64,000 nt of DNA from Corallococcus macrosporus DSM 14697. Lineage in GTDB: Bacteria > Myxococcota > Myxococcia > Myxococcales > Myxococcaceae. Location: positions 5,862,001-5,926,000 of the forward strand of contig NZ_CP022203.1 of NCBI RefSeq assembly GCF_002305895.1. The letters are read 5' to 3'. Below the pieces are notes generated by a model that ran no database searches, was not told the origin of the DNA, and saw nothing but the letters and a program-made list of their open reading frames with translations. Shown piece after piece: positions 6,261 to 36,572 of this stretch. The translations under genes were made by a program, and so were the position numbers. The number at the start of each line of letters is the position of its first letter. The stretch's first letter is position 1.

Positions 6261-8450
6261 TCAGGCGCGACGCCGCTCCAGGGCCATGCCCTCTTCCAGG
6301 AGCGCCGCCACGTCCAGCACCAGGACGGTGCGCCGGTTGCCCAGGTCGGTGGCCCCGGAGATGCCCCGGACGGACTGGAGCCGGCCCCCCAGGGGCTTGG
6401 TGACGATGTCCTGCTGGCCGTGCAGCTCGTCCACGGCGATGCCCAGGCGCTCCTGGGCCAGCCCCACCACCACCACGAAGTGGCGGCTCACCGGGCGCTC
6501 CGGCAGGGCGAACATGCGCGCCAGCCGCACGAAGGGCAGCGTCTGGCCACGCAGGTCCACCACCTCGCGCCGCTCCACGGTGCGGATGTCCCGGGGCTGG
6601 ACGGAGATGATTTCCAGCACGCTGTTGAGCGGCACCGCGTAGGTGCGGCCGCTGACGCCCACCAGCAGCGCGCGGATGATGGCCAGCGTGACGGGCAGCG
6701 TGAGGTGGAAGGCGGTGCCCTTTCCGCGCTCGCTCCACACGTCGATGATGCCGGACAGGTTGCCCAGGTTGTTCTTCACCACGTCCAGGCCCACGCCCCG
6801 GCCGGACAGCTCGGACACGCTGCGGGCGGTGGAGAAGCCGGGCTGGAAGATGAGGTTGAGCAGCTCGCGCCGGCTCAGCTCCTGGGCCTGCGCGAAGGTG
6901 ATGATACCCCGGGTGATGGCCACCTCCCGGACGCGCACCTCGTCGATGCCGGCGCCGTCATCGCTCACCTCGATGACGACGTGATTGCCCTTCTGCTCGG
7001 CGCGCAGGCCCACCACCGCGCGGCGGGACTTGCCCGCGGCCAGGCGGGCGTCGGGGGCTTCGACGCCGTGGTCGATGGCGTTGCGGATGAGGTGCATCAG
7101 CGGGTCGCTGAGCTCCTCGACGATGAGCTTGTCCAGCTCCACCTCGCCGCCGCTGATGGCGAGCTCGATCTCCTTCCCCGCCTCGCGGGTGATGCGACGC
7201 ACCAGCCGCGCCAGCTTGTCGAACACCTGGCCGACGGGGACCATGCGCGCTTCCAGCAGGCCTTCCTGGAGGGCCTCCAGCTTGCGCTCCAGCCCTCGCG
7301 TCTCGCGCGCCAGCTCCTGGCCGAACAGCTTGGACAGCGCCACCGCGCCGTCCTGCCGCGCGGACTCGGCGAGCCGCTGGAGGTTGGCCTTGATGAGCAG
7401 CAGCTCGCCCACCATGTTGATGAGGCCGTCCAGCCGCCCGATGTCCACGCGGACCGTCTGCGTCAGGGAGCGCAGGGACGTGTCCGCCGTCAGCGCCGCG
7501 GGCGGACTGTCGGAGGCGCCAGGCGGTGGCGGCGGCGCCACCGAGAGTCCCTTGGCGGGCACCTTCGCCGCGCCAGGCGTGGACCGGGCGGCCTTCTTCT
7601 TCCCGCCGCGCTTCGTCGGCGTCGAGTGCGCCTCGGACGTGCGAATCGTCGCGGCGGGCTGCGCGGCCTGGAGCAGCGCGTTCGTCGCGGTCGCCGCGGC
7701 TGGGCGCACCGCCAGGGGCGACAGCTCCGCGGGCGTCCCCTTCAGCCCCGCTTCCAGGGACGCGCGGTCGACCTGCGCGCCGAAAATCAGGTCGAACGCG
7801 ATGCCATGCGCCCCACCCGGCTGCGCGGACGGCAGCGTGCTGATGACCTCGCCCAGTGGCTTGAGCCTCGCGTTGAGGTCCGCCAGCCCCTTGTCGAAGT
7901 CGGACAAATCAAACGCGGCCCGAACGCGCCACAGCGCCACGCCCCGGCGCACGTTCTCCCGCAGCCGGTGCTCCTCGTACTCCGTGAAGACGGCGCGGAC
8001 CTGCGCGTCCAGCTCCAGCCGGTCCAGCGGATCATCCTCCGCCACGGCGACCGGGGCCCCCAGGGACGCCAGCCGCGCGGCCATCGCCTCCACGCGGCCC
8101 GACAGGAGCTCGCTCTCCGCGCCGCGCGCGGCCTCGCCCAGCAGCGCCTGGAACGCATCCAGGACTTCAATCAGCGCGTCCAGCACCGCGCCGTCCAGCA
8201 GCAGCTTCCCCAGCCGCAGCCGGTCCAGCAGGTCCTCCGTGCCGTGCGCCAGCCGGGAGATGCGCTCCTGGCCGAACAGCCCGGACAGGCCCTTGAGCGA
8301 ATGCGCCGCGCGGAAGATGCCGTTGACCAGGTCCGGGTCGGCCTCCTGGCCCCGGCGCTCGTCCAGGACGAGCAGGTCCCTGGCCAGGGCGTCCAGAATC
8401 TCCGTGGCCTCGGCCACGAACTCGGCCAGCGCCTTGCCCCCGGGACTCAC
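6261..8450 (-). CDS. cheA: Chemotaxis histidine kinase CheA
   Basis: 729-residue hybrid-free CheA. The P1/HPt domain is at 1-110, with phospho-acceptor H50 in FRAAHSLKG. A proline/alanine-rich linker (about 240-330) replaces a clear P2 domain. P3 dimerisation follows (about 335-400), then the P4 HATPase with N-box RNAIDHGVE, G1 VSDDGAGID and G2 GRGVGLDVV. The P5 CheW-like domain is about 590-729. The start is GTG 8450, overlapping the stop of the upstream cheY in a GTGA. CheA autophosphorylates and feeds CheY and CheB. Two receivers and CheB are linked. No chemoreceptor is seen, so the input must be encoded elsewhere or beyond the left edge. Confidence 0.95.
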   Translation of the reverse strand: MSPGGKALAEFVAEATEILDALARDLLVLDERRGQEADPDLVNGIFRAAHSLKGLSGLFGQERISRLAHGTEDLLDRLRLGKLLLDGAVLDALIEVLDAFQALLGEAARGAESELLSGRVEAMAARLASLGAPVAVAEDDPLDRLELDAQVRAVFTEYEEHRLRENVRRGVALWRVRAAFDLSDFDKGLADLNARLKPLGEVISTLPSAQPGGAHGIAFDLIFGAQVDRASLEAGLKGTPAELSPLAVRPAAATATNALLQAAQPAATIRTSEAHSTPTKRGGKKKAARSTPGAAKVPAKGLSVAPPPPPGASDSPPAALTADTSLRSLTQTVRVDIGRLDGLINMVGELLLIKANLQRLAESARQDGAVALSKLFGQELARETRGLERKLEALQEGLLEARMVPVGQVFDKLARLVRRITREAGKEIELAISGGEVELDKLIVEELSDPLMHLIRNAIDHGVEAPDARLAAGKSRRAVVGLRAEQKGNHVVIEVSDDGAGIDEVRVREVAITRGIITFAQAQELSRRELLNLIFQPGFSTARSVSELSGRGVGLDVVKNNLGNLSGIIDVWSERGKGTAFHLTLPVTLAIIRALLVGVSGRTYAVPLNSVLEIISVQPRDIRTVERREVVDLRGQTLPFVRLARMFALPERPVSRHFVVVVGLAQERLGIAVDELHGQQDIVTKPLGGRLQSVRGISGATDLGNRRTVLVLDVAALLEEGMALERRRA

Positions 8451-8821
8451 GGCAGCTTCAGGTAGCGCCGCAGGAGCGCTTCCAGGCTCCCGGGGAGGAA
8501 GGGCTTCACCAGGTACTCCGCGGCGCCCAGCGCGAGCCCACGCTCGCGGTCCTGGTCGCGTCCCTCCGTGGTGATGATGAAGAGCGGCACGTCGCGGTAG
8601 TTGGGGTTCTTCTTGACGAAGTTGATGAGCTCCAGCCCGTTGATGTCCGGCATGTTGATGTCGGTGATGATGAGCTCGAAGCGGTGACGCGGCAGCAGCT
8701 TCAGCGCTTCGAAGCCGCTCGAGGTCACCACCACCTCGACCCCCTCCACGGCCTCGACCATCGCCGCGATGTACTCGCGCGACGCTTTCGAGTCCTCGAC
8801 AATCAGCACCTTGACACGCAT
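8447..8821 (-). CDS. Single-domain CheY-like response regulator, first gene of the che operon
   Basis: 124-residue receiver with acceptor D54 (IITDINMP), T84 (FIITTEG) and K106 (YLVKP). The preferred start is ATG 8821 (MRVKVLIVED), which begins at beta-strand 1 and has a GGGGC stretch about 8 bases upstream. An ATG 24 bases earlier has no ribosome-binding-like sequence. It overlaps cheA by four bases and is therefore probably made in step with the kinase. The receiver at the other end of the operon shares the DINMP and TTEG motifs, pointing to two branches from one kinase. Confidence 0.88.
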   Translation of the reverse strand: MRVKVLIVEDSKASREYIAAMVEAVEGVEVVVTSSGFEALKLLPRHRFELIITDINMPDINGLELINFVKKNPNYRDVPLFIITTEGRDQDRERGLALGAAEYLVKPFLPGSLEALLRRYLKLP

Positions 8822-8876
8822 GTGCGCACGCCCCGAGCGGGGCATGCTAGCAGAAGGCCCGCCCGCCCGCCGAGCG

Positions 8877-9368
8877 TCAGCCCTTGCGTGCAGGCAGCGA
8901 CTTGACGAGCCCCTTGTCCGCCAGGACCGCCACCCGTCCGCCCTTGAACGCCGGCAGGAAGCCCTTCTGGAAGGCCTCCGCCCGCGCGGCGTCCTCCACC
9001 TGACCGCCCGCGGGGACCTCCAGCGCCACCGCGTCCACCTTCGCCTTGGACAACACGCGCGCCGCTCCGGCCAGGGCCTCGTTCAGCGCGCCCGCGTCCA
9101 GCTTATGACGCGAGCCCAGCCCCACCACGAAGACGCGGGGCACGAGGAGCTTCCCGTCCGACGGCAGCAGCAGCCAGTCGTCCTTCGCGCCGGTGAAGAA
9201 GCCATTCTTCAGCACCCGCGAGAGCGTGCCGCACAGGCGCCAGTCCACGAAGCCCGCCGAGGACGGCAGGGGCCGGTCATCCTCGGCGACGAAGAGGCAG
9301 AGCGCGTCCACCCCGCCGAGCGTGTCCAGCCCTTCCAATCCGATGTCGTGCGTCGTCGTCTGGCTCAC
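8877..9368 (-). CDS. Stand-alone M17 (leucyl aminopeptidase) N-terminal-type domain protein
   Basis: 163 residues. The fold pattern resembles the macro-domain-like N-terminal domain of M17 leucyl aminopeptidases: VDALCLFVAEDDRPLPSS, then LLLPSDGKLLVPRVFVVGLGSRHKLDAGALNEALAGA and VDAVALEVP. In the full enzyme this non-catalytic domain serves hexamer assembly. The zinc-binding catalytic domain (NTDAEGR-type motif) is absent and no aminopeptidase follows. It lies 27 bases downstream of nusB on the same strand. Such solo proteins occur in myxobacteria; their function is unknown to me. Confidence 0.7.
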   Translation of the reverse strand: MSQTTTHDIGLEGLDTLGGVDALCLFVAEDDRPLPSSAGFVDWRLCGTLSRVLKNGFFTGAKDDWLLLPSDGKLLVPRVFVVGLGSRHKLDAGALNEALAGAARVLSKAKVDAVALEVPAGGQVEDAARAEAFQKGFLPAFKGGRVAVLADKGLVKSLPARKG

Positions 9369-9395
9369 GGCGCGTTCCTCGCAGGTGTCAGCGGC

Positions 9396-9818
9396 TCACG
9401 ACTTGTTGAGGGCCACCGCGACGCGGTCCAGGAGCCCGTTGACGAAGGCGCTCGACTCCTCCGTCCCGAAGTTCTTCCCCAGCTCCACCGCTTCGTTGAT
9501 GGTGACCTTGCGCGGGATGTCCGGCCGGTACTTCAGCTCGAAGATGCCCAGGCGCAGCACGTTCCGGTCAATGCGGGACATGCGGTCCAGCCGCCAGTTG
9601 TGGCTGTGCCGTTCGATGAGCTGGTCGATTTCGTCCCGGTGGGACTGCACGCCTTCCACCAGCTCGCGGGCGAACCTCACCGCGTCCGGATCCCTCTTGG
9701 CGCTCTCCTCGGCGGCCGACCAGGCCGACTCCAGCGCCTCCGCCGTCGTCGCGGGGGCCATCTCCAACTGGTAGAGCGCCTGCAGCGCACGCTCACGTCC
9801 CGTTCTTCGCGCGCCCAT
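9396..9818 (-). CDS. nusB: Transcription antitermination factor NusB
   Basis: 140 residues, all-helical, the family length. NusB signatures are GRERALQALYQLEMA near the N-terminus and MSRIDRNVLRLGIFELKYRPDIPRKVTINEAVELGKNFGTEESSAFVNGLLDRVA at the C-terminal half. NusB binds boxA RNA with NusE (S10) for antitermination on rRNA operons. It follows ribH by only three bases; the ribH-nusB pairing is widespread in bacteria. Confidence 0.97.
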   Translation of the reverse strand: MGARRTGRERALQALYQLEMAPATTAEALESAWSAAEESAKRDPDAVRFARELVEGVQSHRDEIDQLIERHSHNWRLDRMSRIDRNVLRLGIFELKYRPDIPRKVTINEAVELGKNFGTEESSAFVNGLLDRVAVALNKS

Positions 9819-21629: not shown

Positions 21630-22129
21630 GCCTGCGACTCCTGTCCCCGCTGTTGCTGCTCGGCCTGGGCGCGTGTGGCCCGGACGCCGAGCCCGCGGGC
21701 CGCTTCCCCCTGGCCCTGACGTTGGAGCGCGCGGTGGCCAACGACGTCCAGGCCCTGCAGGTGGCCGTGGTGACGCGCGGCTCCAGCCGGAGCTGCATCG
21801 AAATCGAGCGCACCTGCCTGGGCACCCAGGTGCGGCGGGATGACCTGGTGGTGCTGAAGGACGCCCAGGGCCGCGAGGGCCGGGCCCTGCGCTTCCCGGT
21901 GGACCTGGCGACCCTCCAATCGGGTGGAAGCCTGGAGCTGGCGGTGGAGGTGCCCGTGGGCCGAGATTACGCGCTCGTCATCGAGGCCATCACCACGGGG
22001 GCGACGCCCGGCTTCCTGGGCAGCTCGTGCAACTACCTCCGGGAGGTCAACGCGGGTGACAACCCGCCGGTGATCGCCGCGCCCCTGACGCTGACCGGTG
22101 GAGACTGCAATCCGTCCATCGCGCCCTGA
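21626..22129 (+). CDS. Putative lipoprotein, function unknown
   Basis: 167 residues. The signal sequence MSLRLLSPLLLLGLGACG has a clear lipobox (LGAC, cysteine at 17). The remainder is a small beta-rich domain with four further cysteines (SCIEIERTC, SSCNYL, GGDC), which could form two disulfides in the periplasm. No named family is recognised. It overlaps the upstream TPR gene by four bases and precedes the response regulator by 25 bases, so all four genes probably form one transcript. Confidence 0.78.
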   Translation: MSLRLLSPLLLLGLGACGPDAEPAGRFPLALTLERAVANDVQALQVAVVTRGSSRSCIEIERTCLGTQVRRDDLVVLKDAQGREGRALRFPVDLATLQSGGSLELAVEVPVGRDYALVIEAITTGATPGFLGSSCNYLREVNAGDNPPVIAAPLTLTGGDCNPSIAP

Positions 22130-22154
22130 GCGCGGCGGGACTCAAGAGGACTTC

Positions 22155-22835
22155 ATGTCGCGCATCCTGATTATCGAGGACGAGCAGGACCTCGCCGGCC
22201 TCGTCGACTACAACCTGCGCGCCGCGGGTTTCGAGACGGAGACGGCGAACACGGGCGCGGGCGGGCTCGCCAAGGCGCGCGCGCATCCTCCGGACCTGGT
22301 GCTGCTGGATTTGATGCTGCCGGACGTGGCGGGCAGCGAGGTGCTGCGCATGCTCAAGGCAGACACCGAGCTGCGCAAGGCGTCCGTCATCATCGTCAGC
22401 GCCAAGGGCCAGGAGTCGGACCGGGTGCAGGGCCTGGAGCTGGGCGCGGACGACTACGTGGTGAAGCCCTTCTCCGTCCGCGAGCTCCTCCTGCGCGTCA
22501 AGGCCGTGCTGCGCCGCGCGGACGCGGAGGACGGGCCCGCCGCGGTGCTGGCCTCCGGCGACATCAGCCTGGACACCACCCGCCACCAGGTGCGCGTGAA
22601 GGGGGAGGAAGTCCTCCTCACCGCGCTGGAGTTCCGCCTGCTGCGCACCCTGCTGGAGCGCTCGGACCGGGTGCAGACGCGCGAGGTGCTGCTGTCGGAC
22701 GTCTGGGGCATCCAGGCGGAGATCCACACCCGCACCGTGGACACGCACATCAAGCGGCTGCGCGAGAAGCTGGGCCCCGCCGGGGACATCATCGAGACGG
22801 TGCGCGGCGTGGGCTACAAGCTCAGCCCCCCGTGA
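22155..22835 (+). CDS. OmpR/PhoB-family response regulator (PhoP-like)
   Basis: 226 residues. The receiver is 1-120 (D9-E-D at beta 1, acceptor in LVLLDLMLPDVAG, conserved ADDYVVKPFS). A winged-helix DNA-binding domain follows (about 130-226: LTALEFRLLRTLLERSDRVQTREVLLSDVWG, RTVDTHIKRLREKLG, VRGVGYKL). The start is ATG 22155, with GAGGA six bases upstream. The kinase gene follows after 21 bases. The sequence is of the PhoP/PhoB class that binds 11-bp direct repeats, which fits the repeat at 20620-20637. Several PhoRP pairs are known in M. xanthus; I cannot say which one this is. Confidence 0.93.
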   Translation: MSRILIIEDEQDLAGLVDYNLRAAGFETETANTGAGGLAKARAHPPDLVLLDLMLPDVAGSEVLRMLKADTELRKASVIIVSAKGQESDRVQGLELGADDYVVKPFSVRELLLRVKAVLRRADAEDGPAAVLASGDISLDTTRHQVRVKGEEVLLTALEFRLLRTLLERSDRVQTREVLLSDVWGIQAEIHTRTVDTHIKRLREKLGPAGDIIETVRGVGYKLSPP

Positions 22836-22856
22836 CGCGAACCCCACGCCCCGCCC

Positions 22857-24218
22857 ATGCCCCTGCGCGCCACGCTCCTTCCGCTCCTGCTGCCCGCCTT
22901 CGTCGTCGCGACGCTCGTCGCCCTCCTGGACGGCCCCAAGGAGGTCGTCGCCGCGGCGCTGGTCGCGCTCGCCGGCTCCCTCATGTCCCTGGGCGTGAGC
23001 CGCGGGACGCTGCAGCGCCAACTGGACCTGCTGGCCCGCCACACGCGCGACCGCGCCGAGGGCGGCCCGGGCGCGCCCCCCGCCGTCCCGGAGCGGCTGG
23101 ATGAAGTGGCCGGCCTGGAGGGCGCCATCGACTCCCTCCACGCCCAGTTGTCCGCGCGCTCCGCCATGCTCACGCAGGAGGCGCGCACCCTCACCGCGGT
23201 GCTGGACGGCATGGCGGAGGGCATCTGGGTGACGGACGACGAGGGCACGGTGGTGCGCCACAACGACGCCCTCCGGGACATGCTGGCCTCCACCAGCGGG
23301 GAACTCACGGGCCAGCGCCCCCTGGCCCTCATCCGCAACGAGGCGCTGCACGACGCCGTCATCCGCGCCTGCCGGGAGGGCGCCTCCAGCCACCTGGAGC
23401 TCACGCTGGACGGCCTCTTCCCGCGCACGCTGTCCATCCGGGTGACGCCCCTGGCCAAGGACTTGCCGGGCAGCGCCGCCGTCTTCCACGACGTCACCGA
23501 GCTGCGCCGCCTGGAGAAGGTGCGCAAGGACTTCGTGGCCAACGTGTCGCACGAGCTGCGCACGCCCATCACCGCCATCCGCGGCTACGCGGAGACGCTC
23601 CAGGGCGGCGCCCTCAATGACCCCGTCATGGCGCCGAAGATGGTGGAGATCATCCACCGCCAGTCCGAGCGCCTGTCCGAGCTGGTGGAGGACCTGCTGG
23701 AGCTGTCCCGCCTGGAGGCCCGCGAGGTGAGCCTGAAGCGCGGCCGCGTGCCCCTGGCGGACGCCGCCGCCCGCGCCGCGGACACCGTGCGCCCCAAGGC
23801 CGAGGGCAAGGGCCAGGTGGTTTCACTCCATGTCCCTCCCGACCTGCTCGCGGAGGGCGACACCCGGGCCGTGGAGCAGGTGCTGCTCAACCTGCTGGAC
23901 AACGCGGTGAAGTACACGCCGGCGGGCGGGCAGGTGGACGTGTACGGCGCGTGCGAGTCGGGCCGCTGCGTGGTGCGGGTGAAGGACACGGGGGTGGGCA
24001 TCGAGCCCAAGCACCTGTCCCGCATCTTCGAGCGCTTCTACCGGGTGGACAAGGGCCGCAGCCGGGACATGGGGGGCACGGGGCTGGGGCTGTCCATCGT
24101 CAAGCACCTGCTGCAGGCCATGGACGGCGAGGTCAAGGTGGAGAGCCAACCCAACGAGGGGAGCACCTTCACCATTTTTCTGCCCCTGGCGGCTTCATCG
24201 AACGCGGCGACCGGGTAG
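22857..24218 (+). CDS. PhoR-like sensor histidine kinase
   Basis: 453 residues. Two close N-terminal membrane helices (about 5-24 and 28-48) have almost no periplasmic loop, as in PhoR. A HAMP-like/coiled linker and a PAS domain (about 110-215, VLDGMAEGIWVTDDEGTVVRHN) come next. HisKA has H232 in VANVSHELRTPITAIRGYAE. The HATPase has NLLDNAVKYTP, VKDTGVGIEPKHLSRIFERFYRVDKGRS and GGTGLGLSIVKHL. It lacks an obvious ligand-binding ectodomain. In the phosphate system PhoR is controlled by Pst/PhoU, and pst genes lie 8 kb downstream. A role in phosphate sensing is inference. Confidence 0.9.
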   Translation: MPLRATLLPLLLPAFVVATLVALLDGPKEVVAAALVALAGSLMSLGVSRGTLQRQLDLLARHTRDRAEGGPGAPPAVPERLDEVAGLEGAIDSLHAQLSARSAMLTQEARTLTAVLDGMAEGIWVTDDEGTVVRHNDALRDMLASTSGELTGQRPLALIRNEALHDAVIRACREGASSHLELTLDGLFPRTLSIRVTPLAKDLPGSAAVFHDVTELRRLEKVRKDFVANVSHELRTPITAIRGYAETLQGGALNDPVMAPKMVEIIHRQSERLSELVEDLLELSRLEAREVSLKRGRVPLADAAARAADTVRPKAEGKGQVVSLHVPPDLLAEGDTRAVEQVLLNLLDNAVKYTPAGGQVDVYGACESGRCVVRVKDTGVGIEPKHLSRIFERFYRVDKGRSRDMGGTGLGLSIVKHLLQAMDGEVKVESQPNEGSTFTIFLPLAASSNAATG

Positions 24219-25729: not shown

Positions 25730-25802
25730 CAGCCCGCAGAAGCGAAGCGGGAGAACGGCGCCTTGAGAAGGGCCGTCCTCCCGCGTGCCTGCTCCGGCCG
25801 CG

Positions 25803-26543
25803 TTACGACCGGCTGGCGGCGACCGACAGGTGCGCGGCGCCGTTGCCGTTCGCCAGCGCGCCGGGGTTGTGCGGCTCCGTGCCCAGCTCGCGCAGCAGCG
25901 CCTCGCCCACCAGCTCATCCATGGGGACGAAGCGGCCCAGCGCCGGGCGCCAGGCGTGGACCTGCGCGGTGCCGATGTCGAACCACCAGCCGTGCAGCCG
26001 CAGCGTGCCCGCGTCGAGGCGCTCCTTCACCCACGGGTAGCTGGCGATGTGCTCCATCTGCAGCAGCACGTTGTTCTGGGACAGGCGGTCGTAGTCCGCC
26101 CGGCCCTCGCCCAGCTTCGGGTTCGCCGCCATGCGCTGGAGCGCGGCCTTGCCGTGCTCGAGCCAGCCGCTGAGGTTCGGGTTCTCCGGCCCCACGCCGC
26201 CCGCGAGGACGGCCTTCATCGCGCCGCAGCTCGAGTGGCCGCACACGACGATGTCCTCCACCGGCAGGTTGCGGAGCGAGAACTCCAGCGCGGCCGCCTC
26301 GGACTGGTCGCGCGTCGACTGCCCCTTGGAGTCCGACGGCGGCACCATGTTGCCCACGTTGCGGACCACGAAGAGGTCGCCCGGGTCCGTGGACACGAGC
26401 AGGTTGGGCACCACGCGGCTGTCCGCGCAGGCGATGAAGAGGCAATCCGGCTTCTGCCCCTGCGCCAGCAACGCGAACTTCTCCCGGTAGTTGGAACGGG
26501 CGTTGAGCTGAAAGTCCAACAGACCGCGGATGAGCTTCCTCAC
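25803..26543 (-). CDS. Beta-class carbonic anhydrase
   Basis: 246 residues. Zinc ligands C39, H103 and C106 with the D41-R43 dyad (IACADSRV, VCGHSSCGAM) define an active beta carbonic anhydrase. The start is GTG 26543, overlapping the SulP stop codon (GTGA), so it is co-translated with the transporter. It interconverts CO2 and bicarbonate in the cytoplasm. Pairing with a SulP/BicA-like transporter points to bicarbonate acquisition or pH balance. A 25-residue Ala/Asn-rich C-terminal tail extends past the core. Confidence 0.95.
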   Translation of the reverse strand: MRKLIRGLLDFQLNARSNYREKFALLAQGQKPDCLFIACADSRVVPNLLVSTDPGDLFVVRNVGNMVPPSDSKGQSTRDQSEAAALEFSLRNLPVEDIVVCGHSSCGAMKAVLAGGVGPENPNLSGWLEHGKAALQRMAANPKLGEGRADYDRLSQNNVLLQMEHIASYPWVKERLDAGTLRLHGWWFDIGTAQVHAWRPALGRFVPMDELVGEALLRELGTEPHNPGALANGNGAAHLSVAASRS

Positions 26544-28087
26544 TGCGCACCTCCAGAAACAAGCGAGTTGTGATTGGGACCTTCGACGACCACGGGGGCG
26601 CTCGACTTCGCCGTCCCCTTACGGCTCCAGACTTCCTCGAGCGACTCGGTGAACACCGTGCCGCCCGTCTTGCGATAGGTGTCGCACCAGCTCTGCAGGG
26701 CTTCGTGCCCGGAGTGGTCCAGCGTCTGCACCGCCAGGTCCAGCTCCACCTTGGAGCCGGCCGGAATCTGCGCCAGCGCGCTGGACAGCTTGGGTACGCC
26801 GACGAACGTCAGCGAGCCCGAGATTCGCACCAGATACGACGCGCTCGCCTGCTGGGAGACGTCCACCTTGACGTTGCCCAGGTGCCACAGCAGGCGCAGC
26901 ACCGCGAACGCCAGGCCCATGCCGATACCGGCCAGCAGGTTGACGCCCACCACGCCGGCCACCGTCACCAGGTATACGGCCAGCTCGCCGCGCTTCTGCA
27001 GCTCGCGGATGTGGTGCACGTTCACCAGCTTCGCGCCGACGAAGACGAGCAGACCGGCCAGCACGGTGAGAGGCACGAGCCCCGCCACCGAGCCGAGCAG
27101 CGTGACGAACAGGAGCAGCCAGACGCCGTGCAGCGTGCCCGACAGCCGCGTCTTCGCGCCGGCGGTGATGTTGGTGGCGCTGCGGACGATGACGCCGGTG
27201 ATGGGCAGGCCGCCCGCCAGACCGGACACCGTGTTCGCCATGCCCTGCGCGAAGAGCTCGCGGTCCAGGTTCGCCCGCGGGCCGGTGTGCATCTTGTCCG
27301 TGGCCACCGCGCTCAACAGCGACTCCGCGCTGGCGACCAGCGCCAACGACAGCACCGCCGTGCCGAAGGTGACCCAGTCCCCCTTGGGGAAGGTCGGGAG
27401 CTGGATGCTGGCGAGGACGTTCTCCGGCAGGTCCACGCGGGCCACGTCCGCGTTCAGGAAGTACGCGGCGGCGCTGGCGCCCACCACGGCCACGAGCGGA
27501 CCGGGGACCTTCTTCAGCTTCCCGGGGACGAACTGCCACGCCACCATCAGGCCAATGGTGAGCAGCCCCAGCAGCGTCGCCGCGCCATGCAGGTCCGCGA
27601 TCTGCCCCGGCAGCTCCTTCACGTTCTGCCACGCGCTCGACTGGGGCGCGCCGCCCATCACGATGTGGACCTGCCCCAGGACGATGAGGATGCCGATGCC
27701 CGCCATCATCCCGTGGATGACGGCGGGGGAGATGGCCAGCGCGCCGCGCGCCACCTTCAGCCCGCCGAGAATCATCTGCACCACGCCCGCGACGGCCACC
27801 GCCGCGCACGTCATGGCCAGGCCCATCTGCTGGATGAAGCCAAACACCATCACCGCGAGCCCCGCGGCGGGACCGCTCACCTGCAGCGGCACGCCGCCGA
27901 AGATGCCCACCACGAGCCCGCCAATCACGCCCGCGATGAGGCCGCTGACGATGGGAGCGCCAGACGCCAGCGCGATGCCCATACACAGCGGCAACGCCAC
28001 CAGGAAGACCACCAGGGATGCAGGCAGGTCCGTTGCCAGCGCCTTCCAAGGGGAAGCAGCGCTCTCAGGACTCTTCGAAGTCGACAT
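26540..28087 (-). CDS. SulP-family anion (probably bicarbonate) transporter with STAS domain
   Basis: 515 residues. Ten or more membrane helices (about 15-410) include the SulP features LPLCMGIALASGAPIVSGLIAGVIGG, VSGPAAGLAVMVFGF, GMMAGIGILIVLGQ, ALVASAESLLSAVATDKM and GLAGGLPITGVIVRSATNITAGAKTRLSG. A C-terminal STAS domain (about 425-490) follows. It starts at ATG 28087, where GGAGG lies 6 bases upstream. The downstream carbonic anhydrase supports bicarbonate rather than sulfate as substrate. Expression is probably from the sigma-54 promoter at 28147-28160. Confidence 0.92.
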   Translation of the reverse strand: MSTSKSPESAASPWKALATDLPASLVVFLVALPLCMGIALASGAPIVSGLIAGVIGGLVVGIFGGVPLQVSGPAAGLAVMVFGFIQQMGLAMTCAAVAVAGVVQMILGGLKVARGALAISPAVIHGMMAGIGILIVLGQVHIVMGGAPQSSAWQNVKELPGQIADLHGAATLLGLLTIGLMVAWQFVPGKLKKVPGPLVAVVGASAAAYFLNADVARVDLPENVLASIQLPTFPKGDWVTFGTAVLSLALVASAESLLSAVATDKMHTGPRANLDRELFAQGMANTVSGLAGGLPITGVIVRSATNITAGAKTRLSGTLHGVWLLLFVTLLGSVAGLVPLTVLAGLLVFVGAKLVNVHHIRELQKRGELAVYLVTVAGVVGVNLLAGIGMGLAFAVLRLLWHLGNVKVDVSQQASASYLVRISGSLTFVGVPKLSSALAQIPAGSKVELDLAVQTLDHSGHEALQSWCDTYRKTGGTVFTESLEEVWSRKGTAKSSAPVVVEGPNHNSLVSGGAQ

Positions 28088-28146
28088 CACACCTCCACAC
28101 AAGTCGCCGCGACTGCCGCGCGCGCCAAATCATGTGGAGGCCCTGG

Positions 28147-28160
28147 GCAATTACCGTGCC
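28147..28160 (-). promoter_or_regulatory. Sigma-54 (-24/-12) promoter of the SulP-carbonic anhydrase operon
   Basis: Read on the minus strand from 28160: GGCACGGTAATTGC. This has the invariant GG and GC separated by exactly 10 bases and matches the GGCACG-N4-TTGC core of the consensus. It points toward SulP, placing the start of transcription near 28136, about 50 bases before the ATG. The neighbouring regulator is NtrC-type and retains the sigma-54 contact loop. Confidence 0.8.
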
Positions 28161-28222
28161 GCCCTGTGCGGGGTGCCTTGAGAGGGACCGCAATCGGATT
28201 GCACCCGGGAATATGAAAGGGG

Positions 28223-28249
28223 TTTTAAGTCCCGGTTCCCGACTTAAAA
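28223..28249. promoter_or_regulatory. Inverted repeat 1, candidate enhancer site for the NtrC-like regulator
   Basis: TTTTAAGTC and GACTTAAAA form perfect 9-bp arms around a 9-base spacer. The centre is about 100 bases upstream of the predicted sigma-54 transcription start, a normal enhancer distance. The arms are AT-rich in a GC-rich genome, so a chance palindrome is unlikely. Confidence 0.6.
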
Positions 28250-28250
28250 T

Positions 28251-28275
28251 TTCTTGAGGTCACCCACCTCAAGAA
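28251..28275. promoter_or_regulatory. Inverted repeat 2, second enhancer site or terminator of the NtrC-like gene
   Basis: TTCTTGAGGT and ACCTCAAGAA form perfect 10-bp arms with a 5-base spacer, directly beside inverted repeat 1. On the minus strand it lies 17 bases after the regulator stop and is followed by ATTTT, so it could also act as a weak intrinsic terminator. Both roles are possible. Confidence 0.55.
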
Positions 28276-28292
28276 TCTTGAAGCGCCCCCGC

Positions 28293-29632
<1,340 letters not shown>

Positions 29633-29636
<4 letters not shown>

Positions 29637-31282
29637 TTGACGACCTCCAACGGAAGGCGCAGCGTGAAGCGGCTCCCCAGCGGGCTCCGGACATAGTTCA
29701 GGCTGCCGCCGTGGGCCTCCACGGACGCGCGCGCCATGGGCAGCCCCAGCCCCACGCCCTTGGCCCGCCCGGTGGCGAAAGGTTCCCACAACCTGGGCTC
29801 GAGCCGGGGGTCCACGCCGCCCGCATTGTCCTCCACCACGAGGACGGCGTCATGGTCGTCCCGCGTCAGACGCACGCTGACCCACGGCGCCGGCTGCATC
29901 CCCGTGTCCCGCGCCACCGCGCCCGCCTCCACCGCGTTGCGCAACACGTTGTCAATGGCGGACACCAGCAGCGCCGCGTCCCCCTGCACCCAGAGCGACT
30001 CCTCCAGGGACGTGCTGAGCGCCACCGTCTCCGACTCCGGCAGCAGCTTCACCCCCTGGAGCGCGTCCTGCACCAGCAGGTGCAGTTCACAGCTCCGCCG
30101 CAGCGCGGCACGCGGCGCCCCGAAGGACAGCAGCGAGCGCGCCAGGTGGCTCAGGCGCTCCACCTGCGAGCGCAGCGCGCCCACGGGCAGCTCGCTGCCG
30201 GCCGGGGTGTGCCGGAGCACGGACAGCGCGGCCTGGATGCCGTTGAGGGCGTTCTTCACCTCATGGGCGATGAGCGAGGCCGCGGTGCCCAGCGCGGCCA
30301 TGGTCTCCTGGCGGCGCAGCCGCTCCTCGGCCGCGAGCAGCGAGCGGAACGAGTGCCGCAGCAGGAGGATGAAGATGATGAGGGTGCTGCTCAGCAGCGC
30401 GATGTGGAACGCGAGCTGCCGCAGGAAGCGCGCGCGCAGGCCCGCGGTGGCCGTCTCCTCCTCCAGGACGACGAGCAACAGCTCGCTCTTCCCCACCCAC
30501 GCGGCCGCGCCCATCAGGTGCTTGCCGTCCAGCGTCAAGGGCCCGGGCATGTCCGCCAGGGCGCGCAGCCTCCCCGTCACGTCCCCGGGCCTCAGCTTGA
30601 GCCCCACCGGCATCAGGAACTGGCCGTTGTCATCCATCAGCACCAGGGACGTCTGCGCCGTCGGCCGCGTGGGCAGCGCGCCCGCGCGGACCTCGCCCAG
30701 CAGCACCCCCTTGAGGCGCCCCTCCTGGGACATGGGGACGGCGACCACGATGGGGCCGCCCTCCCCCTCCAGCAAATCAATCTCCGGCTGGCGGCCCTCC
30801 ACCAGCCGGCGGAACCAGGGCCGCAGCGTGAGCGGCGAGCGCCCCATGGGCATGTCCGGCGGATCGCTCCAGACGCGCTCGCCGGAGGGCGTCAGCAGGG
30901 CCACGCCCTCCGAGAAGAGGGACGAATGATAGAAGGCGCTCTCCAGCAGGGCCTGCTCCGCCGGGGAGATGCCATCCTCGGGCGAGAGCGCGGGGTGCCC
31001 GGCCACGCGGGCCAGCTCCGCCTCCAGCAGGCCCAGGTGGACGCCCAGCGCCTCGGACTGGACCTGCGCCTGGTTGAGCAGCCGGCTCAGCAGCTCCTCG
31101 CGCGCGTTGCGCACGTCCTCCACGTAGCCCAGCACGGGGCTCGTCAACGCCACCAGCCCCACCAGCCCCAACCCGACGAGCGCGGAGCGCCCGCCGCGCC
31201 GCTGCGCGCGGGCCAGCTCTCCGGGCGTGGGAGTCAGCGAGGGGAGTGGAGGCGGGGTCGGCGGCAGGTGGGCGGAGGTCAT
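29633..31282 (-). CDS. NtrB-like membrane sensor histidine kinase with extracytoplasmic sensor domain
   Basis: 549 residues. A proline-rich cytoplasmic start precedes helix 1 (about 33-53), a periplasmic Cache-like sensor of about 230 residues (LLEAELARVAGHPALSPED, VALLTPSGERVWSDPP, LVLMDDNGQFL) and helix 2 (about 291-310). HisKA follows with H340 in SLIAHEVKNALNGIQAALSVLR, the NtrB/ZraS subtype. The HATPase has NVLRNAVEAG, VEDNAGGVDP and KGVGLGLPMA. The ligand is unknown; if the SulP/carbonic anhydrase operon is the target, an inorganic carbon or pH cue would make sense (inference). Confidence 0.93.
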
Positions 31283-31476: not shown

Positions 31477-32166
31477 ATGCCCCATGTCCTCATCGTCGAC
31501 GACGAACGCGACCTCGCGGAGCTCATTGATTTCAACCTGCGGGGCTCCGGCCTCACCACCCACGTGGCCCACACCGGTGACGCCGCGCTGGCGGCCGCGC
31601 GGGAGCAGAACCCCGACCTCGTGCTGCTGGATTTGATGTTGCCGGACATGTCCGGCATCGACGTCTGCAGGCAGCTCCGGGCAAGCCCCCAGTCGCGGGG
31701 CGTGCTCATCGTCATGCTCACCGCCAAGGGCGAGGAGTCCGACCGCATCCGCGGCTTTGAGGTCGGCGCGGACGACTACGTCGTGAAGCCCTTCAGCGTG
31801 CGCGAGCTGGTGCTGCGCCTGAAGGCCATCCTCCGCCGGGGCGCGCCCGCCACCGGGAACGCGGCGCCGCTGACGCTGGGGCCCCTGCGGCTGGACGTGG
31901 CGTCCCACCGCTTCTTCGTGGACGAGCGCGAGGTGGCGCTCACCGCGCTGGAGTTCCGGCTCCTGGAGCACCTGCTCGCCCGCCTGGGCCGGGTGCAGAC
32001 ACGGGAACAGCTCCTGGAGGAGGTCTGGGGCCTGTCGTCGTCCCTGGAGACGCGCACCATCGACACCCACGTCATGCGCCTGCGCGACAAGCTGGGCCCC
32101 GCGCGCGCCCTGCTGGAGACGGTCCGCGGTGTCGGCTACCGGATGTTGGACCCGGCGGCCGGCTGA
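31477..32166 (+). CDS. Orphan PhoB/OmpR-family response regulator next to pst
   Basis: 229 residues. The receiver has acceptor D in LVLLDLMLPDMSG and the ADDYVVKPFS motif. The winged-helix C-terminus reads LTALEFRLLEHLLARLGRVQTREQLLEEVWG, TRTIDTHVMRLRDKLG and VRGVGYRML. No kinase gene accompanies it. pstS follows 133 bases downstream in the same direction. The orphan context matches what I recall of M. xanthus PhoP4 (an orphan regulator by the pst genes), which I could not verify. Its own kinase may be the PhoR-like protein at 22857-24218 or another PhoR elsewhere. Confidence 0.93.
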   Translation: MPHVLIVDDERDLAELIDFNLRGSGLTTHVAHTGDAALAAAREQNPDLVLLDLMLPDMSGIDVCRQLRASPQSRGVLIVMLTAKGEESDRIRGFEVGADDYVVKPFSVRELVLRLKAILRRGAPATGNAAPLTLGPLRLDVASHRFFVDEREVALTALEFRLLEHLLARLGRVQTREQLLEEVWGLSSSLETRTIDTHVMRLRDKLGPARALLETVRGVGYRMLDPAAG

Positions 32167-32171
32167 GCGTC

Positions 32172-32188
32172 GTGACCTCGATGTCACG
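32172..32188 (+). promoter_or_regulatory. Pho-box-like repeat / palindrome upstream of pstS
   Basis: GTGAC (32172) and GTCAC (32183) are spaced 11 bp, with one mismatch between units. The same bases also form a perfect palindrome CGTGAC-N6-GTCACG (32171-32188). A further GTCACG lies at 32214-32219, about three helical turns away. It sits 110-127 bases upstream of the pstS ATG. Confidence 0.45.
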
Positions 32189-32298
32189 TGGCGGACGCGA
32201 AACGGACACCCACGTCACGTAGAAGCGCGCCGTCCTCACGCAGGCCCCCCGCAGCCACCAGATTCCGGTCCGCCACTTCCCGCCTGGAGAAGTCCCTC

Positions 32299-33120
32299 AT
32301 GCCCTCGCTCCTCAAGCCCCTGCTCGCGGTGTTCCTCCTGGCCCTCCCCGCCGCTGCCCGCGCGGGCACCGTCACCATCAAGGGCTCCGACACCATGGTC
32401 ATCCTCGGCCAGCGCTGGGCCGAGGCGTTCATGAAGAAGAACCCCGCCATCAAGGTGCAGGTCACCGGCGGCGGCTCCGGCGTGGGCCTGGCGGCCCTGC
32501 AGAACGGCACCACGGACATCGCCATGTCCAGCCGGGAGATGAAGAAGGCCGAGGCCGACAAGCTGAAGGCCCGCTACAAGGCGCCGCCCGCGCAGCGCTC
32601 GGTGGCCAAGGACGGCGTCACCTTCTACGTCCACCAGGGCAACCCCGTGGGCGCGCTCACCACCGAGCAGCTCATGAAAATCTACGTGGGTGACATCTCC
32701 AACTGGAAGCAGGTGGGCGGCGCGGACGCGCCCATCGTCGCCTACTCCCGGGAGAACTCCTCCGGCACCTACGTCTTCGTGAAGGACATGGTGCTGGACG
32801 GCGAGGACTTCGCGCCCGCCATCCAGACGCTGCCCGGCACCGCCGCGGTGGTGAACGCCGTCTCCAAGGAGAAGAACAGCCTGGGCTACGGCGGCGCCGC
32901 CTACGCCGAGGGCGTCAAGGAGCTGAAGGTCAAGAAGGGCAACGAGGACATCGCCCCCAGCGCGGACAACATCAAGAGCGGCAAGTACCCGCTGGCGCGC
33001 GACCTCTTCTTCTACCTGCGCGCCGAGCCCACCGGCGACCTCAAGACCTTCATCGACTTCGCGCTGTCCCCGGAAGGTCAGGCCATCGTCACCCAGGTCG
33101 GCTACTTCCCCGTGAAGTAG
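32299..33120 (+). CDS. pstS: Phosphate ABC transporter, periplasmic substrate-binding protein
   Basis: 273 residues. Signal peptide 1-22 (LLKPLLAVFLLALPAAARA) with mature start near GTVTIKGSDTM. The phosphate-binding loops GSDTMV, GGGSGVGLAALQNGTTDIAMSSR and YSRENSSGTYVFVKDMV are typical of PstS. It captures phosphate for the PstCA channel. The start at ATG 32299 is preceded by GGAGAAG. It heads pstS-pstC-pstA-pstB-phoU, all on the plus strand. Confidence 0.96.
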   Translation: MPSLLKPLLAVFLLALPAAARAGTVTIKGSDTMVILGQRWAEAFMKKNPAIKVQVTGGGSGVGLAALQNGTTDIAMSSREMKKAEADKLKARYKAPPAQRSVAKDGVTFYVHQGNPVGALTTEQLMKIYVGDISNWKQVGGADAPIVAYSRENSSGTYVFVKDMVLDGEDFAPAIQTLPGTAAVVNAVSKEKNSLGYGGAAYAEGVKELKVKKGNEDIAPSADNIKSGKYPLARDLFFYLRAEPTGDLKTFIDFALSPEGQAIVTQVGYFPVK

Positions 33121-33129
33121 CCGCGGAGC

Positions 33130-33145
33130 GTCACACGAATGTCAC
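33130..33145 (+). promoter_or_regulatory. Pho-box-like direct repeat between pstS and pstC
   Basis: GTCAC at 33130 and again at 33141, exactly 11 bp apart (GTCACACGAATGTCAC). It is only 18 bases before the annotated pstC ATG, so a promoter here would work best if pstC starts at the internal ATG 33182. Resembles the repeats at 20620 and 36589. Confidence 0.45.
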
Positions 33146-33163
33146 AAGAGGCCCTGAGTCCCA

Positions 33164-34162
33164 ATGGATAGACAGGCGACCATGGAGCAAGGTCTCACGC
33201 GAGCCGTGGCCGCGCCGCGCCTGTCCGCGGCCGCGCGGCGGCGTCAGCTTCGGGAGAAGGCCGTGGCGGGCTTCATCACGCTGATGGCGTTCACCGGCAT
33301 CGCGGCGCTCGTCCTCATCATCGTCTTCGTGGCCAAGGAGGCGCTGACGCTCTTCACGGACGCGGACGCCCGCCACGAGGCGAGCCTCTCCAAGATGTTC
33401 CTGGCGCAGGAGGGCCGCTACCCGTTCCGGTGGCAGCCCGTGTCGGACACGCCCAAGGTCAGCATGATTCCGCTGTTCGTGGGCACGCTGAAAATCACCC
33501 TGGTCTCCATGCTGGTGGCGGTGCCCATGGGCGTCTTCAGCGCGCTCTTCGTCGCGGAGTTCGCCCCGCGGCGCCTGCGCGAGCTGCTCAAGCCCGTCAT
33601 CGAGCTGCTCGCCGGCATCCCCTCCGTGGTGCTGGGCTTCTTCGCGCTGATGGTGCTGTCCCCCATGGTGAAGGACCTGTTCCACCTGGACCGGCCGCTC
33701 AACGGCACGCTGGCGGGCCTGGCGCTGGCGCTGGCCATCGTCCCCGTCATCTTCACCGTGTCCGAGGACGCGCTCACCGCGGTGCCCCGCAGCTACCGCG
33801 AGGCCTCGCTGGCGCTGGGCGCCACGCTCTGGGAGACGGCGTGGAAGGTGGTGCTGCCCGCGGCGGCCCCCGGCATCCTCGCCGCGTGCGTGCTGGGCTT
33901 CGGCCGGGCCATTGGCGAGACAATGATCGTCCTCATGGCCTCGGGCAACGCGGACATCGTGTCCTGGAACCTGGGGGACTCGGCGCGCTCGCTGTCGGCC
34001 ACCATCGCCGCGGAGATGGGTGAAGTCGTGGTGGGCAGCCCGCACTACGCCCTGCTCTTCTTCATTGGCGTGGAGCTGTTCATCTTCACCTTCGTCCTCA
34101 ACATGGCCGCCTCCGCCTGGACGAAGAAGGTCCTCCAGCGGCTGACCGGGAGCGCCTCGTGA
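33164..34162 (+). CDS. pstC: Phosphate ABC transporter permease PstC
   Basis: 332 residues. Six membrane helices and the binding-protein-dependent permease loop [26 protein letters not shown]. Typical PstC features are FVGTLKITLVSMLVAVPMGVFSALFVAEFAP and GRAIGETMIVLMASGNAD. There is a large periplasmic insert after helix 1 (LFTDADARHEASLSKMFL). ATG 33164 gives a longer N-terminus than ATG 33182; neither has a strong ribosome-binding site. It forms the inner-membrane channel with PstA. Confidence 0.95.
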   Translation: MDRQATMEQGLTRAVAAPRLSAAARRRQLREKAVAGFITLMAFTGIAALVLIIVFVAKEALTLFTDADARHEASLSKMFLAQEGRYPFRWQPVSDTPKVSMIPLFVGTLKITLVSMLVAVPMGVFSALFVAEFAPRRLRELLKPVIELLAGIPSVVLGFFALMVLSPMVKDLFHLDRPLNGTLAGLALALAIVPVIFTVSEDALTAVPRSYREASLALGATLWETAWKVVLPAAAPGILAACVLGFGRAIGETMIVLMASGNADIVSWNLGDSARSLSATIAAEMGEVVVGSPHYALLFFIGVELFIFTFVLNMAASAWTKKVLQRLTGSAS

Positions 34163-35070
34163 AGTACACCACGCGCCGGGCGGTGGGGCTGGGCCTCACC
34201 GGACTGACGGCCCTCGCGGCCTTCGCCATCGTGGGCATGCTGGCCCTCATCCTGCTGGACGTCGCCAACCACGGGGCCCGCCACCTCTCCTGGGCCTTCC
34301 TCACCGAGCCGCCCAGCGACGGCATGATGGGCGGCGGCATCTTCCCCGCCATCTTCGGCACCGCCGCGCTCACCCTGCTGATGACGGTGGCGGTGATGCC
34401 GGTGGGGGTGTTCACCGCCGTGTACCTCCACGAGTACGCGCCGCCGGACTCGCGCTTCGCCCGCTGGGTGCGCGTGGCGGTGGTCAACCTCGCGGGCGTG
34501 CCGTCCATCGTCTTCGGCCTGTTCGGCCTGGGCTTCTTCATCCTCTTCGTCGGCGGCAACCTGGACCGGCTGCTGGGCTACGAGCAGATGCACTGGGCCC
34601 AGCCGGGCATCCTCTGGGCGGCACTGACGCTGGCGGTGCTGACGCTGCCGGTGGTCATCGTGTCCACGGAGGAGGCCCTGCGCGCGGTGCCGCTGGAGCA
34701 GCGTACCGCCAGCCTGGCGCTGGGGGCCACCCAGTCGCAGACGCTGGCGCGGGTGGTGCTGCCCGGCGCCCTGCCCGGCATCCTCACCGGCGCGGTGCTG
34801 GCCATCTCCCGCGGCGCGGGCGAGGTGGCGCCCATCCTCTTCACCGGCGCGGCCTACTTCCTGCCGGACCTGCCCACGGCGCTGGACTCCCAGTTCATGC
34901 ACCTGGGCTACCACACGTATGTCATGGCCACCCAGTCACCCAACGTGACGGAGGCCAGCGGTCCGCTGTATGCGACGGTGCTGGTGCTGCTGGCGCTCAC
35001 CTTCGCCCTCAACCTCGTCGCGGTCATCATCCGGACGCGCACGCGCCGCAAGGCCGCCAGCGCCCACTGA
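34159..35070 (+). CDS. pstA: Phosphate ABC transporter permease PstA
   Basis: 303 residues. Six membrane helices. The EAA-type loop [49 protein letters not shown] matches PstA. Starts with GTG 34159 overlapping the pstC stop (GTGA), so PstC and PstA are made at equal rates. The segment after helix 1 includes the PstA-like [22 protein letters not shown]. Confidence 0.96.
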
Positions 35071-35083
35071 CGGTACGCCTGCC

Positions 35084-35860
35084 ATGTCCCTCCCCCCCCA
35101 GAATCCCCGCGCGAAGATGGAAGCGCGGGAGCTCACCCTGCGCTACGGCCCCAAGACGGCCATCCACAAGGTCTCCCTGGCCATCCAGGATCGGCGGGTG
35201 ACGGCGCTCATCGGCCCCTCCGGCTGCGGCAAGTCCACCTTCCTGCGCTCGCTCAACCGGATGAACGACCTCATCTCCGGCACGACGCACGCGGGCACCA
35301 TCCTGCTGGACGGCGCGGACATCCATGACCGCGGCGTGGACGTGGTGGACCTGCGCCGCCGCGTGGGCATGGTCTTCCAGAAGTCCAACCCCTTCCCCAA
35401 GAGCATCTTCGAGAACGTCGCCTACGGCCTGCGCGTGGGCGGGATGAAGGACAAGGCGGAGCTGGCCGCGCGCGTGGAGAAGTCCCTGCGCGGCGCCGCG
35501 CTCTGGGACGAGGTGAAGGACCGGCTGGACGAGAGCGCCCTGGGCCTGTCCGGAGGACAGCAGCAGCGGCTGTGCATCGCCCGCGCGATGGCGGTGGAGC
35601 CGGAGGTGCTGCTGATGGACGAGCCCGCCAGCGCGTTGGACCCCATCGCCACGGCGAAGATCGAGGAGCTCATCCACGAGCTCAAGGCGACGTACACCAT
35701 CGCCATCGTCACCCACAACATGCAGCAGGCCGCGCGCGTCAGCGACCGCACCGCTTTCTTCTACATGGGCGAGCTGGTGGAATGCGGCCCCACCGAGCAG
35801 ATCTTCACCAACCCGCGCGAGAAGCGCACCGAGGACTACGTCACCGGCAAGTTCGGGTGA
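35084..35860 (+). CDS. pstB: Phosphate ABC transporter ATP-binding protein PstB
   Basis: 258 residues, standard PstB length. Walker [10 protein letters not shown], followed by the PstB-specific [12 protein letters not shown]. The Q-loop is [19 protein letters not shown], the signature [16 protein letters not shown], Walker [13 protein letters not shown] and the switch histidine is in [17 protein letters not shown] 35084 is chosen as the family N-terminus; the longer frame overlaps pstA. It energises phosphate uptake and takes part in PhoU/PhoR signalling. Confidence 0.97.
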
Positions 35861-35885
35861 GCGGAAGAAAGAGGGGACCGGACAC

Positions 35886-36572
35886 ATGCCGTCGATGCAC
35901 ACGGACAAGGCCTTCGAGGCGGACCTGAGGGATTTGCGGGAGAAGCTGCTCGCGATGGGCGCCAAGGTGGAGACCCTCATCGTCCAGAGCATGAAGGCGC
36001 TCACCGACCGCGACAGCGCCCTGGCCGAGAAGGTCGTCGCCGCCGACAAGGACGTCAACCGCCTGGAGGTGGACATCGACGAGCTGTGCCGGAAGATCCT
36101 GGCGCTGCGTCAGCCCGCCGCCAGTGACTTGCGCCTCATCACCACGGCGTTGAAGATCGTCACCGACCTGGAGCGCATCGGCGACCTGGCGGTGAACATC
36201 GCCGAGCGCTCCATGGACCTGAACCAGGTCGCCCCGCTGGCGCCCTACGTGGACACGCCCCGGCTGGCGGAGCTGGCCCAGCGGCAGGTCCGCATGTCCC
36301 TGGACGCCTTCGTCTCCGGTGACGTCGCCAAGGCGGAGGAGGTGCTCCGGGGGGACGATCTGCTGGATGCCCTCTTCCTCAAAATCTTCAACGAGCTCCT
36401 CGCCTACATGATGGAGGACTCGCGCAACATCCGCCGCGCCACGGCGCTGATGTTCATCGCGAAGCACCTGGAGCGCATCGGCGACCACGCGCTGAACGTG
36501 GCGGAGATGGTCGTCTACATGGTGCGGGGCAAGGACATCCGCCACCCGCGGAGCCGCAACCTCGCCGAGTGA
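35886..36572 (+). CDS. phoU: Phosphate signalling regulator PhoU
   Basis: 228 residues, two PhoU helical-bundle repeats. The metal-binding motifs E/DxxxD are visible in each repeat: RLITTALKIVTDLERIGDLAVNIAE and RRATALMFIAKHLERIGDHALNVAE. PhoU couples the Pst transporter state to PhoR and prevents phosphate toxicity. It lies 25 bases after pstB with the same orientation, completing the operon. Confidence 0.97.
   Translation: MPSMHTDKAFEADLRDLREKLLAMGAKVETLIVQSMKALTDRDSALAEKVVAADKDVNRLEVDIDELCRKILALRQPAASDLRLITTALKIVTDLERIGDLAVNIAERSMDLNQVAPLAPYVDTPRLAELAQRQVRMSLDAFVSGDVAKAEEVLRGDDLLDALFLKIFNELLAYMMEDSRNIRRATALMFIAKHLERIGDHALNVAEMVVYMVRGKDIRHPRSRNLAE

Follow-up and report, generated by a model that had tools for sequence, protein, structure and literature searches.

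Within the 64-kb stretch of Corallococcus macrosporus DNA that was analysed (hereafter, the window), a dedicated two-component circuit of the sigma-54 type very likely drives an operon encoding a SulP-family transporter and a beta-class carbonic anhydrase, and the products of this operon would most likely handle bicarbonate and CO2. Sequence comparison among relatives gives strong support to the regulatory circuit, and the role in inorganic carbon metabolism is likely, judging from the genomic partners of the transporter. Phosphotransfer from kinase to regulator, binding of the regulator upstream of the promoter, dependence on sigma-54, bicarbonate as the substrate and the inward direction of its transport are what we infer from the motifs and the gene content.

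All four genes lie on the minus strand and are arranged as sensor kinase (31282-29633), response regulator (29636-28293), intergenic gap (28292-28088), sulP (28087-26540) and carbonic anhydrase (26543-25803). Kinase and regulator genes overlap by four bases (ATGA), and so do sulP and the carbonic anhydrase gene, the start codon of the latter lying over the sulP stop codon (GTGA); the locus thus consists of two translationally coupled pairs with one promoter-sized gap between them. For sulP, the ATG at 28087, which is preceded by a GGAGG ribosome-binding site (28096-28092, minus strand) that is kept before the ATG in most of the other gaps inspected, was preferred over a TTG at 28102. The leader between the promoter and the start codon (28135-28088) appears to be GC-rich and hairpin-forming in several relatives. 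Among the relatives named, Myxococcus and Pyxidicoccus have the same locus, which marks the chromosome as one of the Myxococcus type. In most Myxococcus relatives, the interval between the carbonic anhydrase gene and a histidine-phosphatase gene (8366-9690 in locus L036) contains genes for a TauE/SafE-like permease and for a second, small membrane protein. As this interval measures only 73 bp in the window (25730-25802), both genes have apparently been lost here. The locus is flanked on both sides by phosphate-type regulators, two in number: a PhoB-like regulator followed by pstSCAB-phoU-like genes at 31477-36572, and a second PhoB/PhoR-like pair at 22098-24218.

The regulator (28293-29636, minus strand) is an NtrC-type response regulator, or enhancer-binding protein, with a receiver domain (Pfam Response_reg, 4e-29; phospho-acceptor aspartate in VVLDRRLP), an AAA+ domain (Sigma54_activat, 4e-59) and a Fis-type helix-turn-helix (HTH_8). 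Its AAA+ domain with Walker A and B motifs and a GAFTGA-type loop places it in the NtrC superfamily, and Walker A (GETGVGK), the LFLDEV segment and the GAFTDA loop are conserved in the regulator family (50 homologs). The sigma-54 loop reads GAFTDA, not GAFTGA, in nearly the whole family, paralogs next to other -24/-12 promoters included, with GSFTDA in loci L056, L058 and L073. Proteins with GAFTDA or GAYTDA were counted as sigma-54-competent in a survey of Desulfovibrio (PMC4641369); for VfmH of Dickeya, which also has GAFTDA, a pull-down gave no sigma-54 (PMC10714721). We rejected the idea that the loop marks a sigma-54-independent regulator, because the whole family has it next to conserved -24/-12 boxes.

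The kinase (29633-31282, minus strand) is a membrane sensor histidine kinase with two transmembrane segments, a periplasmic Cache-like domain (Pfam dCache_1, 2e-5, below cut-off), HisKA (1e-5) and HATPase_c (1e-17). An AlphaFold model built from the kinase and 12 close relatives was set aside (pLDDT 48). The preliminary description had called the pair NtrB/NtrC-like, and in the broad sense the name is apt: the order of receiver, AAA+ and Fis-type domains, the membrane kinase, the tandem upstream sites and the -24/-12 promoter are shared with the NtrB-NtrC, ZraS-ZraR and AtoS-AtoC systems. It does not extend to the proper families, as the regulator stays far below the curated cut-offs of NtrC (TIGR01818, 343 bits versus 559), ZraR and AtoC, the best curated match of the kinase, AtoS, reaches 119 bits versus a cut-off of 646, the activator carries GAFTDA, and the target is a SulP-carbonic anhydrase pair instead of nitrogen, metal or acetoacetate genes.

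Across relatives, the genes for the kinase, the NtrC-type regulator, SulP and beta-carbonic anhydrase are kept together. A close regulator (at least 77% identical) is present in 54 of the 96 genomes of the family, and a close SulP (at least 71%) in the same 54. Both genes are adjacent wherever coordinates were compared, which was confirmed in 40 fully read loci, and kinase orthologs (57-94% identical) are found in all SulP-linked loci. Two relatives without the SulP (G041 and G079) are also without the regulator, another (G042) has a regulator paralog only, and in G002 the regulator match ends at residue 394 of 449. This strict co-inheritance, together with the conserved promoter box and upstream sites, bears out the earlier proposal of a self-contained circuit of kinase, sigma-54 activator, enhancer, promoter and target.

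For the analysis of the control region, the regulator and sulP genes of relatives were located by tblastn and the gap between them was cut out, which gave 40 gaps and a nonredundant set of 27 (pairwise less than 85% alike). The gaps measure roughly 170-300 bp and are strongly diverged outside the conserved elements. In the window, an intergenic gap of about 190 bp holds the predicted sigma-54 promoter CGGCACGGTAATTGCC (28161-28146, minus strand), an exact match to GGCACG-N4-TTGC with the GG-N10-GC spacing also exact; it agrees with 14 of the 16 positions of the consensus TGGCACG-N4-TTGC(A/T) and predicts a transcription start at about 28135. GGCACG-N4-TTGC has a single exact match in the window, where shuffles predict 0.40, and 13 in the 8.97-Mb genome, where the reversed control pattern has 15. 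As the string is not enriched over the reversed control genome-wide, it is weak evidence when taken alone, and position and conservation decide. The -24/-12 box stands at the same place in all 40 orthologous gaps, the strict string is kept in 22 of the 27 nonredundant ones, and a relaxed form of the box occurs in every real gap versus 0.05% of shuffled gaps. The near-consensus -24/-12 promoter of the preliminary description is thereby confirmed, and the control region is real, beyond chance. No sigma-70 consensus was found in the regulator-sulP gap of the window. In M. xanthus, sigma-54 is reportedly essential (cited in PMC12316311).

When the sequences preceding the box in the 27 nonredundant gaps were subjected to expectation-maximisation, the conserved unit emerged as an 18-bp site resembling ACTTCAAGTTTCTTTCAT, present two to three times per gap, with the motif A-C-T-T-C/A-A-A/G-N-T-T-C/T-T-T-T-N-A-A-T. 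Its log-likelihood was 861, versus 50-60 for shuffles, which were given fewer starting points; a palindrome-constrained motif was discarded, since it fitted more poorly than the unconstrained 18-mer. All 27 nonredundant gaps contain two or three strong sites. Counted from the -24 element, the inner two are centred 59-63 and 89-94 bp further upstream, with a spacing of 29-33 bp or about three helical turns, and a single shifted gap (L086) has them at 72 and 101; the outer third site is found in some lineages only. The window has three predicted activator sites, all read on the minus strand: GCTTCAAGATTCTTGAGG (28284-28267), CCTCAAGAAATTTTAAGT (28259-28242) and ACTTAAAACCCCTTTCAT (28230-28213), whose centres are 114, 89 and 60 bp before the -24 element, at about -140, -115 and -86 from 28135, respectively. 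Such tandem predicted sites fall 75-150 bp from the predicted start, as is the case for enhancers of the NtrC superfamily. The 18-bp matrix and the -24/-12 box coincide at a single place in the window, and a pattern search found no comparable site array at 28 genome sites resembling the motif core, nor at the 12 other exact -24/-12 strings.

Two perfect AT-rich inverted repeats upstream of the promoter had been put forward as the enhancers. The repeats exist: palindrome 1 (TTCTTGAGGT-N5-ACCTCAAGAA, 25 bp, 28275-28251, minus strand) consists of the right half of site 1 and the left half of site 2, and palindrome 2 (TTTTAAGTC-N9-GACTTAAAA, 27 bp, 28249-28223, minus strand) is built likewise from sites 2 and 3. 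That they are the real enhancer units, as first drawn, is highly improbable. Both are free of mismatches here and almost so in L036, but repeats of this type, spanning two neighbouring sites, arise only where the sites lie about 25-29 bp apart and occur in just three of the 27 nonredundant gaps, all from close relatives, whereas the 18-bp site is found in all 27 at a fixed distance from the promoter. On the sequence evidence, the palindromes are genuine and result from the close succession of three near-palindromic sites. Also highly improbable is an account in which the repeats terminate transcription of the regulator gene, transcription of the operon starts at an unrelated promoter and the GGCACG-N4-TTGC match is due to chance. 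Palindrome 1 does score as a weak terminator just past the regulator stop codon, which may be incidental, and the lack of genome-wide enrichment of the exact string would agree with such a view; however, most orthologous gaps lack the hairpin yet retain the 18-bp sites and the box, and the gap is devoid of a sigma-70 consensus. As the palindromes are not conserved, we rejected the terminator reading.

With a sigma-54 promoter and tandem activator sites as the preferred reading of the gap, we turn to the operon itself. The SulP protein (26540-28087, minus strand) is an anion transporter of the SulP/SLC26 family and ends in a short STAS-like tail; the Pfam domain Sulfate_transp (1e-66, residues 22-377) extends over its membrane part and assigns it to the superfamily. 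Its best solved relative is BicA (6ki1, 5e-35). It is not a BicA according to NCBIfam (155 bits, cut-off 880) and reaches no curated cut-off for BicA, sulP or DauA. In the 6ki1 alignment, D258, T262 and T302 of BicA, the sodium-site residues, are replaced by E, S and I. As the protein lies so far below the BicA cut-off and has altered residues at these positions, sodium-coupled bicarbonate uptake cannot be assumed, and it is possible that the transporter works as an exchanger or exporter. In Thiomicrospira, some SulP proteins carry inorganic carbon and others do not, and one of the two from T. pelophila failed in E. coli (PMC12628692).

The carbonic anhydrase (25803-26543, minus strand; Pfam Pro_CA, 7e-46) has relatives with solved structures and a complete zinc site of the beta class (C39-x-D41-x-R43 and H103-x2-C106), so that both the domain and the Cys-Asp/Arg-His-Cys active site identify it as a beta-carbonic anhydrase; the genome encodes one further enzyme of this class. 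A carbonic anhydrase accompanies the close SulP in every case. It also lies 3' of SulP in Actinobacteria (L043-L046, L048, L052) and adjoins SulP in L162-L164. Pairs and fusions of SulP with carbonic anhydrase were reportedly described by Felce and Saier in 2004, and the genetic joining of both functions is what the locus has in common with them. Another SulP gene of the same genome (L134, G000:C1:5647000-5652500) is divergent from the genes of a kinase and of an NtrC-like regulator with GAFTGA, and may form a separate sigma-54 circuit.

Related genera include at least seven genomes in which a SulP protein 46-51% identical to the one studied here is followed directly by DabA (PF10070; 5e-199 in L159) and, where the sequence was read far enough, by a DabB-like protein. 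The loci concerned are L159, L165, L166, L177, L178 and L181-L183; DabA is absent from the C. macrosporus genome. In five of the SulP-DabA genomes, belonging to two genera, a -24/-12-like box and two GGGGCA-N3-TGCCCC-like palindromes are found upstream; here, too, an inorganic carbon operon appears to have a sigma-54-like arrangement, of a different kind. These operons (L159, L165, L166) share with our locus a related SulP and partner genes for inorganic carbon. They differ in that their palindromes do not match the 18-bp sites and no copy of the regulator studied here is adjacent, so that presumably another activator is at work. With carbonic anhydrase and DabA/DabB as partners of the SulP and its relatives, an inorganic carbon role is favoured. 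The term bicarbonate uptake, used in the preliminary description, is therefore plausible as far as these partners go; assignment to BicA itself is at odds with the cut-off and with the residues at the sodium site.

The activator has close paralogs in the Myxococcaceae which are located beside other genes (regulators 60-68% identical, kinases 37-42%). TolC-like, CusB-like and CusA/CzcA-type efflux proteins are the products of the operon that comes next, in the same orientation, in L066, L068-L071 and L073 (TIGR00914, 995 bits for the CusA/CzcA-type protein of L069), and in L066, L068, L069 and L071 boxes such as GGGCACGCGCCTTGCC are accompanied by paired TGAAAG-N-TTTCA or TTTTGA sites. Similarity thus extends to the activator, to a near-identical recognition helix (LSYPTFLRRL or LSYPTFLKRL), to the upstream sites, to gene order and, for several of these pairs, to the -24/-12 box. 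The differences lie in the target, a metal efflux operon of the RND type, in the sites (TGAAAG-N-TTTCA versus TTCAAG-N-CTTGAA/CTTTCA at the SulP locus) and in the sensor domain. The strongest indirect argument that the activator family binds these sites is their recurrence, as one class, at two operons unrelated to each other.

The signal may be something other than CO2, given that a metal pump lies beside the nearest paralogous circuit. One may then regard the circuit as real and serving a response to metal or envelope stress, with SulP and carbonic anhydrase acting in metal/carbonate chemistry, in exchange of sulfate or other anions or in pH repair, not in carbon supply. We consider this unlikely, although it agrees with the position of the closest paralogous kinase-regulator pairs at CusA/CzcA operons, with a SulP that curated cut-offs leave outside BicA, sulP and DauA, and with the TauE/SafE-like permease and small membrane-protein genes 3' of the carbonic anhydrase in most Myxococcus relatives. 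Against it stand the constant association of carbonic anhydrase with this SulP and of DabA/DabB with SulP relatives, as well as the divergence of the periplasmic sensor domain, which is 31% identical to that of the paralogs versus 68% among orthologs. Residues H119 and E197 are invariant across 40 SulP-linked kinases and not in the metal-operon paralogs. This pattern indicates that the signal has probably changed.

Under the interpretation that we prefer, a circuit devoted to inorganic carbon, the periplasmic-sensor kinase would phosphorylate the GAFTDA-type activator, both being encoded on one upstream transcript. Bound to its 18-bp sites, two or three in number and 75-150 bp ahead of the start, the activator would then oligomerise, loop to sigma-54 polymerase at the -24/-12 element and remodel it by ATP hydrolysis, upon which SulP and carbonic anhydrase would be produced together. 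Most likely, SulP would move bicarbonate across the membrane and the enzyme would interconvert it with CO2, which may supply the carboxylation reactions of a heterotroph with inorganic carbon or serve its pH balance. Taken jointly, the data can be read in a more far-reaching way, which is possible but which we put forward only tentatively: inorganic carbon acquisition in heterotrophic myxobacteria would have come under sigma-54 at least twice, once with an activator duplicated from a metal-efflux system (SulP-carbonic anhydrase) and once with another, acting at GGGGCA-N3-TGCCCC sites (SulP-DabA-DabB), and the kinase, with its invariant His119 and Glu197, would sense CO2/bicarbonate or pH in the periplasm.

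Inorganic carbon uptake in cyanobacteria and autotrophs is known mainly under LysR-type regulators and, to our knowledge, the regulation of CO2/bicarbonate supply in heterotrophs is a largely open field. Among the open-licence papers searched, those that bring together carbonic anhydrase or SulP proteins with Myxococcus, with RpoN or with enhancer-binding proteins gave no account of control by sigma-54 or enhancer-binding proteins of SulP-carbonic anhydrase pairs or of bicarbonate uptake, in keeping with the earlier statement that no described system of this type was known. Two-component sigma-54 circuits and SulP-carbonic anhydrase pairs are each known; as far as could be found, their combination is new. 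The circuit is compact, its predicted activator sites are mapped and the genus is genetically tractable, which makes the regulation of carbon supply in a heterotroph testable, with the kinase as a candidate periplasmic sensor of CO2, bicarbonate or pH. The paralogous circuits at the metal pump and at the SulP-carbonic anhydrase operon constitute a natural pair in which the signal of a two-component system would have changed while the promoter architecture was kept. Predatory soil bacteria of the genus Myxococcus and their relatives thus probably regulate the supply of inorganic carbon by a previously undescribed route.
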